A DNA stretch of 64,000 nucleotides, from contig NZ_MWQY01000002.1 in the NCBI RefSeq assembly GCF_002087085.1, positions 124,001-188,000 of the forward strand, given 5' to 3'. Both the position numbers and the translations under genes were made by a program. The stretch comes from Marispirochaeta aestuarii (GTDB lineage Bacteria; Spirochaetota; Spirochaetia; JC444; Marispirochaetaceae). This document shows, one piece after another, positions 5,608 through 14,938 of this stretch. The notes beneath the pieces were generated by a model. It ran no database searches. It worked only from the letters and a program-made list of their open reading frames with translations, and was not told where the DNA came from. Every line of letters starts with the position of its first letter. The stretch's first letter is position 1.

Positions 5608-7203
5608 TCAGGTATCTGTAAAGTTAGGGCACCTCCGGCTTCCGCCACTGTAGCGATGGGCAAGATGAACCGCGAGACGCCACCTGGGATACTCCCTGTC
5701 GAAAAGCTCCTCTTCCCGGGGATTGGAAAAAACTTCGTACTGCAGGGGGATATCCCGCAGTTCATCTTCGCTGCTCCACCAGAGGGCACCCAGGCCTGCC
5801 ATACAGGCTGCCCCGACGCTGCTGAGTTCCAGTTCAGGGGAACGCAGAACAGGAATGCCACAGGAAGCGGACAACAGCCGCATGAGAATCGTCGAACGGC
5901 TGACGCCTCCATCGACCTTCAGCTGCCTGACCTCTACCCCAAGATCCTTTTCTATACCCTGAATAATCTCACGAACCCGGAAGGCGATTCCTTCATACAT
6001 GGCCCGGGCAATCTGGGAGCGCTTTGTTCCCAGGCCCAGACCGAACACGGCGCAGCGCATTCCCGAACGGAAATAGGGGAATCGTATACCCAGGGGTGTG
6101 GGAAGAAAGATAACCCCGCCGGAATCAGCAGCCTCTTCCGCCAGGGCATCGAGCTCCTCGGGAGAATCGGCAAAACCGATTTCCGAAGAGAGCCAGTTGA
6201 TGAGTGTACCTACCGAGGCTACCTGCCCTTCCAGCATGTAGGTTACCTTTCCCTGTATGGACCATGCGATAAGAGGAAAAAGGCCCCGGGGCGAAAAGCG
6301 CGGTCTGGACCCGACATTAATCGTCACAAAGCTCCCTGATCCCTTGGAGACCTTCACCTCTCCGGGATCAAAACAGCGGTGACCGAAGAGGGCCGCCATC
6401 TGGTCGCCCACAAGAGCCTTTACAGGGGCTTGAACCCCAACAAAGACCTCGGGATCCGTGGTACCAAAATCGTCAATGCTGTCCCGTACAGGGGGAAGGA
6501 TGCTGACGGGAATGTCAAAAAGCCAGCAGAACAGGCGGTTCCACTTGAGCTTGAACGGATTGTAGAGTCCGGTGGCCGCCGCATTTGAGGTATCCGTAAC
6601 CCATTGCCGTCCTCCGCTCATACGATAGAGAAGCCAGGTATCCAGGGTTCCGAAGCGCAGGCTTCCGTCCCTGCAGGCTTCCCGGATGGCGGGGTTCCGG
6701 TCAAGAAGTGCCTTCAGCCGGCAGGAAACATGGACAGTGGTAAAACGCAACATGGAAGCGGTACGAAGAAAGGCATTTCCGGAAATCCGCCCGGCAATAC
6801 CCGCGGCCAGACGGATTATCCGCCAGACCAGAGACCGGTTCATGCCGGCAGCCGTTTCCATCGAACGCACATCCGACCAGGAGATCAGCTTTGTTACAGG
6901 TTTTCCGGTACCTTCCTCCCACAGGCAAAAGGTGGCCCGCTGCACGGTCACCGCAACCGCATCCGGCTGCCCCAGATCAGGATGCTCCCGGAAAAGACCT
7001 TCTGTTGCTTCCAGAACGATAGTCCAGACGGTTTCCGGGTCAAACTCAACCGCTCCGTCAGGGCCCGGCAGGGGAGAGAGCTTCCGGCGGAACATGGCGA
7101 AGGCCTGGCCGTCGGTATTCACTGCGGTGGCCCGAATACCGGAACCTCCTGCATCAATTGTCAGAATCCAGCGGAAATCCCGCCTGGAGTCGGTACTGTC
7201 CAT
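5608..7203 (-). CDS. FGGY-family carbohydrate kinase
   Basis: 531 residues. The N-terminal ASKHA phosphate-1 motif is WILTIDAGGSGIRATAVN, followed by the FGGY_N and FGGY_C domains. KVSKGSGSFVTINVG and LKVDGGVSRSTILMRLLS are typical of xylulokinase/glycerol-kinase relatives. These enzymes phosphorylate a sugar or polyol with ATP, but the substrate cannot be assigned. The start at 7203 rather than 7245 is preferred because a TTGCCC-N17-TATTAT promoter ends exactly six bases before this ATG, implying a leaderless message. The upstream start would lie inside the promoter. No transporter gene adjoins it. Confidence 0.88.
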   Translation of the reverse strand: MDSTDSRRDFRWILTIDAGGSGIRATAVNTDGQAFAMFRRKLSPLPGPDGAVEFDPETVWTIVLEATEGLFREHPDLGQPDAVAVTVQRATFCLWEEGTGKPVTKLISWSDVRSMETAAGMNRSLVWRIIRLAAGIAGRISGNAFLRTASMLRFTTVHVSCRLKALLDRNPAIREACRDGSLRFGTLDTWLLYRMSGGRQWVTDTSNAAATGLYNPFKLKWNRLFCWLFDIPVSILPPVRDSIDDFGTTDPEVFVGVQAPVKALVGDQMAALFGHRCFDPGEVKVSKGSGSFVTINVGSRPRFSPRGLFPLIAWSIQGKVTYMLEGQVASVGTLINWLSSEIGFADSPEELDALAEEAADSGGVIFLPTPLGIRFPYFRSGMRCAVFGLGLGTKRSQIARAMYEGIAFRVREIIQGIEKDLGVEVRQLKVDGGVSRSTILMRLLSASCGIPVLRSPELELSSVGAACMAGLGALWWSSEDELRDIPLQYEVFSNPREEELFDREYPRWRLAVHLAHRYSGGSRRCPNFTDT

Positions 7204-12664: not shown

Positions 12665-12925
12665 TCAGGCGTCGCGTACAGTATCCCAGTCAATCTCCGC
12701 GGAATAGCCAAGGCGATGAACAATTTCTTTTATCCGTTCCAGCGAACCCGCATTGCCGCCATAGCTCACGGATATTTCACCTTTACTTGCGTCAACATTG
12801 ACATCTGCAACACCCTGAACCTTTCGGCCGGCATGTTCTATGGTAAAAACACAGGAAGCGCAGGTAGCACCGCTCAGTTTGAGTTTAGCCTGCTTGGTGT
12901 TGGTTCGTTCCAGATCGTTTTTCAT
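12665..12925 (-). CDS. Heavy-metal-associated (HMA) domain protein, CopZ-like
   Basis: 86 residues forming a single HMA domain. GATCASCVFTIEHA contains the CxxC metal site, and the rest follows the beta-alpha-beta-beta-alpha-beta pattern of CopZ/Atx1 metallochaperones. Such proteins carry Cu(I) or another soft metal in the cytoplasm. No P-type ATPase gene is in the window. It precedes the two-component pair whose sensor is Met-rich, suggesting a metal-response function. No Shine-Dalgarno is near the ATG, and a weak leaderless-type promoter fits instead. Confidence 0.85.
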   Translation of the reverse strand: MKNDLERTNTKQAKLKLSGATCASCVFTIEHAGRKVQGVADVNVDASKGEISVSYGGNAGSLERIKEIVHRLGYSAEIDWDTVRDA

Positions 12926-12960: not shown

Positions 12961-12980
12961 CACTCTTTTTTCGAATTACA

Positions 12981-13735
12981 CCTCTGCGGATTCTGCGCAG
13001 TTATTCCTCCCACATTCACGCCCTACGCCAGGATAACCTACACATACTGAGGCACAGGTACCCGAACCACGCAGCGGGCGCTGAAAAGAGAAGGCATAGC
13101 TGTCGCAGCACAGGTGATCAGCCCGGTTTATACCTCTGCGAACTCTGCGCGGACATTCTTTCTCGTTCACACGCTATCCGAACTATCCAATGCTTCATGA
13201 GTCACAGGCACCGGAACCACGCAGAGGACGCTGAGAGGAGAAGGCATAGCTTTCGCAGCGCAGGTGATCAGCCCGGTTTATACCTCTGCGGATTCTTCGC
13301 GAACATTTCTCCTCCTTTTCACACTACACTACAATAACCAACGCTTCATGAGGCACAGGTACCCGAACCACGCAGCGGGCGCTGAGAAAAGGGGGCACAG
13401 CTGTCGCAGCGCAAGTGATCAGCCCGGTTTATACCTCTGCGAACTCTGCGCGGACATTCTTTCTCGTTCACACGCTATCCGGACTATCCAACGCTTCATG
13501 AGTCACAGGTACCGGAAAATCCACGCAGAGGACGCTGAGAAGAGGGGGCACAGCTGTCGCAGCGCAGGTGATCAGCCCGGTTTATACCTCTGCGAACTCT
13601 GCGCGGACATCCCTCCTCCTTTTCACACTACACTACAATAACCAACGCTTCATGAGGCACAGGCACCGGAACCACGCAGAGGACGCTGAGAAGAGAAGGC
13701 ATAGCTGTCGCAGCACAGGTGATCAGCCCTACGTA
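12981..13735. repeat. Tandem repeat array: five units of 150-153 bp with alternating unit types
   Basis: Units begin at CCTCTGCG (12981, 13133, 13283, 13434, 13587) and each ends with GTGATCAGCCC preceded by a conserved GCATAGCTGTCGCAGC-like tract. Spacings are 152, 150, 151 and 153. Units 2 and 4 share one middle segment (CTTTCTCGTTCACACGCTAT), and units 3 and 5 share another (CCTTTTCACACTACACTAC). The array is therefore also a 301-304 bp dimer repeated twice after a divergent first unit. Each boundary has a CGCAGAGG-like sequence facing the CCTCTGCG of the next unit across about 55 bases, able to form a hairpin. The short open frames are not conserved in phase and are not genes. It fills the space between divergent genes. 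Confidence 0.9.
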
Positions 13736-13748
13736 TACCACGATACCT

Positions 13749-13777
13749 TTGGCTATTTTTCCCGTTTTGTGTATATT
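13749..13777 (+). promoter_or_regulatory. Probable promoter of the M29 aminopeptidase operon
   Basis: TTGGCT (13749-13754), 17-base spacer, TATATT (13772-13777), directly after the last repeat unit. The expected start near 13784 gives a leader of about 33 bases before the ATG at 13817. Confidence 0.5.
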
Positions 13778-13816
13778 ATCCCTGCATTCACAGAAACTAC
13801 CGGGAGCAGACCTGTC

Positions 13817-14938
13817 ATGATTCATCCTAAACAAGCCGAACTTGCCCGTCTTCTTGTTACCCACTCCGTTGCACTGAAAAAAGGGGAGAAATGCCTGATC
13901 CAGAGCCATGACGTCCCGGAGGAGATGATCGAAGCCCTTATAAACGAAATCTACGAAGTCGGAGCCTATCCTGTGCTCGATTATCGCCGCGCGCGGCTGC
14001 AACGGGCACTGCTTAAAGGCGCATCCGTGGAGAGCCTTACAAATCTCGCGGAGATAGAAGCCTTCCGCATGAAAAAGATGGACGCTTTTATCGGTATCCG
14101 GGGTTACGACAATCCCAGGGAAACCGGCGATCTCCCGGAATCCCAGAGCCAGCTTGAAATGACCCACCTGATGAAACCGGTGCATCATGAAATACGGGTT
14201 CCCGGAACCAAATGGGTGGTATTGCGCTACCCGACCCCAGGGATGGCCGCCATGGCGCAAACCTCCACCAGCAGCTTTGAGGATTTCTATTTTGCCGTGA
14301 CTACGCAAGTCGATTATGCTGCAATGGCAAAGGCGATGGAACCGGCCAGGGAGTTCCTGGAGAAAACGAAAAAGGTCCATATCACCGGCCCCGGCACCGA
14401 CCTCAGGTTCTCCATCGAATCAATTCCGGTTGTTCCCTGCTTCGGGGAACGGAATATTCCCGACGGTGAAATCTATACCGCGCCGGTACGGGACACTGTC
14501 GAGGGGACAATCAGTTATAACGCGCCTTCCAGCTTTTTCGGTCACACCTACCAAAACATCCGATTCAGTTTTGAAAAGGGAAGGATTATCGAGGCCGCTT
14601 CCGACGATACCGGCAAGCTGAACGCCATACTCGATACCGATGAAGGCTCCCGGTATATCGGTGAATTCGCCCTGGGCTGTAATCCCCGGATTCTGGAACC
14701 GATGGACGAAACGCTCTTCGATGAAAAGATCGCCGGTTCCTTTCATTTTACGCCGGGAAACGCGTATACAGAAGCGGACAACGGAAACCGCAGCGCCATC
14801 CACTGGGACCTGGTCTGCATTCAGCGCCCGGAGTACGGGGGAGGAGAGATCAGCATGGACGGTCAGCTCATCCGCAAGGACGGGATTTTCGTCCACCCCG
14901 CCTTTGAAGCTTTGAATCCAAAGCACCTGACCCGCTGA
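13817..14938 (+). CDS. M29-family (thermophilic-type) aminopeptidase
   Basis: 373 residues resembling aminopeptidase T/AmpS (M29): LARLLVTHSVALKKGEKCLIQ at the N-terminus and HWDLVCIQRPEYGGGEISMDGQLI at the C-terminus, where the metal-binding region lies (GNRSAIHWDLV). These are cytoplasmic dinuclear-metal exopeptidases. The open frame extends upstream into the tandem repeats, but the real start is ATG 13817: homology begins there and GGGAG sits about ten bases upstream. It is first in a five-gene plus-strand run (spacings 26, 12, -4 and 40 bases). Confidence 0.9.
   Translation: MIHPKQAELARLLVTHSVALKKGEKCLIQSHDVPEEMIEALINEIYEVGAYPVLDYRRARLQRALLKGASVESLTNLAEIEAFRMKKMDAFIGIRGYDNPRETGDLPESQSQLEMTHLMKPVHHEIRVPGTKWVVLRYPTPGMAAMAQTSTSSFEDFYFAVTTQVDYAAMAKAMEPAREFLEKTKKVHITGPGTDLRFSIESIPVVPCFGERNIPDGEIYTAPVRDTVEGTISYNAPSSFFGHTYQNIRFSFEKGRIIEAASDDTGKLNAILDTDEGSRYIGEFALGCNPRILEPMDETLFDEKIAGSFHFTPGNAYTEADNGNRSAIHWDLVCIQRPEYGGGEISMDGQLIRKDGIFVHPAFEALNPKHLTR

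Follow-up and report, generated by a model that had tools for sequence, protein, structure and literature searches.

RAYT transposase genes are flanked by REP/REPIN repeats, and gene-less copies of these repeats are dispersed. MITEs lack a gene of their own but have the same terminal inverted repeats as a relative that carries one. REPINs are short palindromes that occur between genes in many copies, frequently in clusters (PMC3116915). The intervening sequences (IVS) of 23S rRNA with the S23 protein have been described as selfish elements (PMC4990558). The multicopy intergenic sequences of Geobacter are grouped into families by their palindromes or direct repeats, and in the available part of these reports no associated protein is named (PMC2700814, PMC2996986).

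Here, we describe a tandem array found in a 64-kb stretch of the Marispirochaeta aestuarii genome (the window), together with GxxExxY genes whose flanks carry arms of the same type. As in REPIN/REP-RAYT systems, the repeats are short, palindromic and intergenic, and a protein gene is flanked by them. The flanked gene, however, is not the HUH Y1 transposase gene by which REP/REPIN systems are recognised; it belongs to PF13366/TIGR04256, for which a PD-(D/E)XK nuclease-like fold is predicted in place of the Y1/HUH transposase fold of RAYT. The arms also differ from REPIN/REP in that they are periodic internally, with a 9-bp period, and occur in more than one sequence flavour within a genome. The likeness to the 23S rRNA IVS lies in terminal inverted repeats that form a hairpin enclosing a small ORF, an architecture also seen in our data for S23 genes outside rRNA. 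Unlike the IVS, the GxxExxY elements are located outside rRNA, code for another protein family and have a period of 9 bp, not 7 bp. With the Geobacter sequences they share the organisation into intergenic palindrome or direct-repeat families, and with MITEs the gene-less copies whose inverted repeats are those of a gene-bearing relative; no transposase and no target-site duplication were found here, and we infer the spread of the present elements.

Intergenic repeats of the CGCAGAG/CACAGAG type are common in bacteria and lack an explanation, as do the widespread protein families GxxExxY and S23. Should the arms be recognised by the GxxExxY protein, one answer would serve both puzzles, and the protein would be a new kind of repeat-propagating nuclease. 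The link between the window repeat and GxxExxY points to a class of repeat elements in bacteria that has received little notice. The association was nowhere described in the literature retrieved on repeat sequences, PDDEXK_3 and S23-type repeat elements; GxxExxY was itself seldom mentioned in the available papers, and no repeats were named alongside it in the text examined.

Structure of the Tandem Array and Neighbouring Genes

The array and its surroundings consist of the following features (window positions):

12665-12925, minus strand: left neighbour, a protein with a heavy-metal-associated (HMA, PF00403) domain
12976-13729, no strand: tandem array with five units of 151 bp, each in the order arm R, spacer, arm L and loop, from TRF and unit alignment
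13749-13777, plus strand: TTGGCT-17-TATATT, a promoter-like site ahead of the M29 gene
13817-14938, plus strand: right neighbour, M29 aminopeptidase (PF02073)

The TRF analysis gave a period of 151 bp with 5.0 copies (score 954) over the whole array and a higher-order period of 304 bp at 13048-13729 (score 1162). The unit starts given in the initial annotation (12981, 13133, 13283, 13434 and 13587) proved exact in the unit alignment, from which lengths of 152, 150, 151, 153 and 143 bp were obtained for units 1-5. The alignment also placed the reported TGATCA palindrome within a conserved tract in all five units. As for the sequences said to face each other at every junction, the arms were confirmed, but the literal CGCAGAGG is present in units 2, 4 and 5 only, with CGCAGCGG in units 1 and 3. 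In the 64-kb window, CCTCTGCG occurs 12 times (2.8 expected) and ACGCAGAGGACGCTGAGA-like sites occur five times (0.01 expected). The five-unit array is confirmed as real. Its copy number was taken from a draft assembly of 78 contigs, a state of the genome that would favour an assembly artefact; that explanation is extremely improbable, since the units differ by 5-21%, ordinary genes lie on both flanks, and similar arrays are present at other loci of the genome. Two ORFs of 125-127 aa inside the array are probably spurious.

Whole-unit identity was 95% for units 2 and 4, 89% for units 3 and 5, and 79-88% for the remaining pairs. The alternating A-B-A-B order proposed earlier holds chiefly for the middle segment, in which units 2 and 4 are 94% identical and units 3 and 5 are 96% identical, as against 74% for units 2 and 3. 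Outside the pairs 2/4 and 3/5, spacer identity is just 64-77%, while the segment comprising the left arm and the loop is 86-95% identical across all five units. Unit 5 is a mosaic with arms resembling those of units 2 and 4 and a middle resembling that of unit 3, and unit 1 is roughly equidistant from every other unit (79-82%). A single dimer duplication, by which the array had been proposed to grow, therefore does not by itself account for it; the mosaic unit indicates that conversion or unequal exchange took place as well.

The array ends about 20 bp short of the promoter-like site, in agreement with its reported position just before the M29 promoter, and adjoins the site on the upstream side without disrupting it. 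One site of this type was found, against 0.7 expected, and a similar sequence is located at the same place in the congener G002. The M29 frame is open upstream into the array (456-aa ORF from GTG, 13568-14938, plus strand). The ATG at 13817 is the likelier M29 start, and automatic start calls may fall in the array. The closest named relative of the M29 protein in the genome collection is from a Spirochaetales MAG (63% identity), and the next relatives are from other Spirochaetia MAGs, among other phyla.

Arms, Hairpins and RNA Tests

The ten arms of the array were assigned by unit alignment, and eight of them form four hairpins (all on the plus strand):

12981-13000: R arm 1 (CCTCTGCGGATTCTGCGCAG), without an upstream partner
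13067-13152: hairpin 1, L arm 13067-13086, 46-nt loop, R arm 13133-13152, 13/20 paired
13217-13302: hairpin 2, L arm 13217-13236, 46-nt loop, R arm 13283-13302, 13/20 paired
13368-13453: hairpin 3, L arm 13368-13387, 46-nt loop, R arm 13434-13453, 14/20 paired
13521-13606: hairpin 4, L arm 13521-13540, 46-nt loop, R arm 13587-13606, 15/20 paired
13672-13691: L arm 5, without a downstream partner (the loop segment ends the array)

The hairpin consensus consists of the left arm CCACGCAG[A/C]GG[A/G]CGCTGA, 46 nt, and the right arm CCTCTGCGAACTCTGCGCGG (one variant). The arms are inverted, of the CNCNGAG type, and built from 9-bp units (ACGCAGAGG/ACGCTGAGA and their complement). In the autocorrelation of the ten arms lag 9 was the highest (0.49), with lag 11 near it (0.48). 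Neither the 9-bp period nor the link to GxxExxY was among the observations of the initial annotation.

A structured RNA had been listed among the possible functions, and we weighed a structured non-coding RNA or a transcription attenuator on the basis of the four hairpins and of three weak terminator-like stems within the R arms. The Rfam scan of the window gave no match above the gathering score, and the tRNA/tmRNA search of the window gave none. Folding z-scores of the arm-loop-arm segments were weak (-0.7 to -2.3, with hairpin 4 folding best at -2.3). No compensatory change was found in the arms, and the left arms pair with foreign right arms as well as with their own. The unit was not found in congeners either. 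Since compensatory change is absent and folding is weak, a conserved RNA from the array is unlikely, and the RNA or attenuator explanation as a whole is very improbable.

Related Arms Elsewhere in the Genome

The genome of M. aestuarii (G000) was searched by pattern and by family. The complete unit is unique within its own genome. The strict arm pattern CGCNGAGNNCGCNGAG, in contrast, gave 52 matches, compared with 0 for the reversed control, and these fall in arrays on contigs C7, C11, C12, C16 and C29. On C12 the window R arm was matched at 92% over 25 nt. A profile built from the window hairpins matched other hairpins of the genome (C11 and C12) and of a congener, whereas a spacer profile gave no significant match against all the fetched loci. 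This indicates that the arms are the shared part and that the spacers are array-specific. An array of 9.4 copies of 71 bp with a super-period of 215 bp and the same arm type is located at 82.3-82.9 kb of C7 (L059:4261-4935), and so the combination of regular units and a higher-order period, regarded earlier as unusual, has a counterpart in the same genome. Related CGCAGAG repeats were also found in unrelated bacteria, in agreement with the initial annotation.

The genome carries eight GxxExxY genes. The array on C12 holds one of them (TIGR04256/PF13366) in its middle, between arms of the type seen in the window. For most of the eight genes, short-period repeats of a different flavour were recognised by eye at the flanks; the copy on C8, for instance, is immediately preceded by a 137-bp unit that contains CCACAGAATACACAGAAAACACGG hairpins. 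On C3 there are two tandem GxxExxY copies (L058:4669-5383 and 6240-6952) in a 716-bp duplication of 90% identity with CACGACGGG-type arms. No GxxExxY gene was found near the window array or on its contig (C2); the array is therefore termed a gene-less derivative and not a complete element.

Association of Arms with GxxExxY Genes

About 10 kb was fetched around 80 further GxxExxY genes of the phylum. Beside GxxExxY genes, inverted-repeat coverage was 5.8% within 200 bp, compared with about 0.9% beyond 700 bp. When the two flanks were compared, 36 of 84 genes had inverted repeats above the 99th percentile of shifted controls, and the median score was 14.5 against 10 in these controls. The remaining 48 genes were below the threshold, which counts against the reading as an element. 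The median distance of the arm ends was 18 bp from the HMM start on the upstream side and 11 bp from the stop on the downstream side. Lag 9 exceeded lag 7 in 31 of 34 arms; over all 84 genes, the best lag was most often 9 (26 genes), followed by 10 (16 genes). Among GxxExxY genes, likeness of the arms goes with likeness of the proteins (Mantel rho 0.35, 0/300 permutations), a correlation that includes vertically inherited orthologue pairs.

Co-occurrence was assessed in 295 genomes, with genomes called repeat-rich when the arm pattern outnumbered its reversed control by at least 10 and the contingency counted by hand. GxxExxY is present in 62 of the 295 genomes. Repeat-rich were 25 of these 62 but only 15 of the 233 genomes without the gene (Fisher 5e-10), and an excess of at least 40 was seen in 14/62 and 2/233, respectively. 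In the largest family alone, the hand-counted values were 5/17 and 0/50 (p 6e-4). The genomes are related, so these p-values are optimistic. The 15 repeat-rich genomes without GxxExxY argue against the element reading; G278 and G070, which lead this group in repeats, each have close relatives with GxxExxY.

In other phyla, AACCGCAGAGGACGCAGAGGGCCGCAGAGG hairpins accompany GxxExxY of Gemmatirosa (Gemmatimonadota), the Bacteroides gene (Bacteroidota) is arranged as CCACAGAGGACGCAGAGG..CDS..CCTCTGTGTCCTCTGTGG, and similar arms are present in Bernardetia. The inverted-repeat score was not distinct from controls in Persicobacter, Prevotella, Treponema saccharophilum and the Fusobacteria record, and no GxxExxY match was found in phage records. 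Taken together, the association of the arms with GxxExxY genes is well supported. In Sphingomonas (L257, NZ_CP155749.1:481394-484735), GxxExxY has fabD and fabG as its neighbours and a ACGCGAAGG repeat on one side only, and this copy looks like an insertion into a fatty-acid operon.

The GxxExxY Protein

An alignment of 46 GxxExxY sequences revealed the invariant residues D84, E94-x-K96 and Q108-x3-Y112 (D / ExK / QxxxY). The sequence search for solved structures gave none, and the AF2 model from a single sequence was unusable (pLDDT 43). The AF2 model with pLDDT of 91.6 gave its best, though weak, PDB matches with Cas4 SSO0001 and lambda-exonuclease types (best E 8e-4), and it also matched viral PD-(D/E)XK nucleases. 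Both the fold and the D, ExK and QxxxY residues of these nucleases were thus found in the model and the alignment. GxxExxY can be modelled as a small Cas4/lambda-exonuclease-like PD-(D/E)XK protein with intact catalytic residues and is a predicted nuclease. The dN/dS values were 0.02-0.11 among close or related pairs with estimable dS (dS was saturated for L053/L077), and the protein is under purifying selection.

Such strong selection, together with repeats kept at orthologous positions between species, would suit arms that serve as target or regulatory sites of a nuclease beneficial to the host, with repair, genome defence or nucleoid organisation as examples of its role. The patchy presence of GxxExxY (62/295 genomes), arrays wholly unlike between congeners and the insertion-like Sphingomonas copy speak against this explanation, and we regard it as improbable.

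Evolution of the Array Site and Proposed Origin of the Array

The suggestion that the locus is variable was borne out by the congener G002, in which the same HMA-M29 gap contains quite different CGCAGAG repeats (CCGCGCAGAGGAACGCAAAGG-type) and no 151-bp unit. A search for the unit in the congeners G001-G003 gave no match, an empty answer that counts as weak evidence. The sites of the C7, C12 and C16 arrays are likewise occupied by other CGCAGAG repeats in G002. No empty site was found for the arrays sought there, and recent array transposition is therefore not seen. No target-site duplication was identified; the window site, too, is occupied by repeats in G002. Because the sites are occupied in both species and their contents are unlike, the comparison points to an old array site with fast turnover. 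A segment of about 100-150 bp with a single CTCTGCG near L059:7581-7661 of M. aestuarii is absent from G002. The paralogous GxxExxY pair L072/L073 of G002 lies within a multi-kilobase duplication and does not define the element ends.

The main rival for the present form of the array is neutral change, in which old CGCAGAG intergenic repeats are altered by replication slippage and recombination and GxxExxY merely shares permissive intergenic places. The unrelated arrangements at every occupied array site checked in G002, the mosaic unit 5 and the arms without compensation all fit neutral change, which may hold in addition. As a full account it is rather doubtful, given that in several phyla repeats hug both sides of the GxxExxY CDS within about 20 bp.

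We consider it reasonably likely that the array arose by tandem expansion from a family of hairpin elements and lacks their gene; the full form of these elements carries GxxExxY between arms of 9-bp units and would spread by means of the nuclease. The GxxExxY protein would recognise the periodic arms, as a DNA hairpin or duplex, and nick or cut them, leading to copying or homologous rearrangement. The arms could then multiply and occasionally disperse, giving rise to gene-less copies, and existing copies could expand, contract and convert locally into tandem arrays. The window array may be a gene-less product of such nicking or cutting, and it probably has no host function.

S23 Genes with Similar Architecture

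G278, which is repeat-rich and lacks GxxExxY, has three genes of the S23 four-helix-bundle protein. Among the S23 genes of the phylum, 18 of 30 lie in tight inverted repeats above the threshold, compared with 1 of 57 controls. In the S23 arms lag 7 exceeded lag 9 in 17 of 18 cases, and the difference in period between the GxxExxY (9) and S23 (7) families is significant (Fisher 9e-10). No other observation suggests as strongly that a repeat is shaped by its protein, and a period specific to the protein family also speaks against the neutral explanation. Where the flanks of S23 loci were inspected, they are protein-coding neighbourhoods and not rRNA. We tentatively propose, as a possibility somewhat short of even, an undescribed class of bacterial selfish elements in which the gene of a small protein, either the GxxExxY nuclease or the helical bundle S23, is located inside an inverted repeat of short tandem units. 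The unit length (9 or 7 bp) would be set by the protein family, and the elements would spread gene-less hairpins and arrays, the window array among them, through the genomes of many phyla. Inverted repeats with a 7-bp period were observed at S23 genes (TIGR02436) of L150, L151, L266, L269, L272, L273, L275-L277 and others. The arm units of S23 genes include (GGTAATT)n, (GAAAGDT)n and the GTGAATR type.
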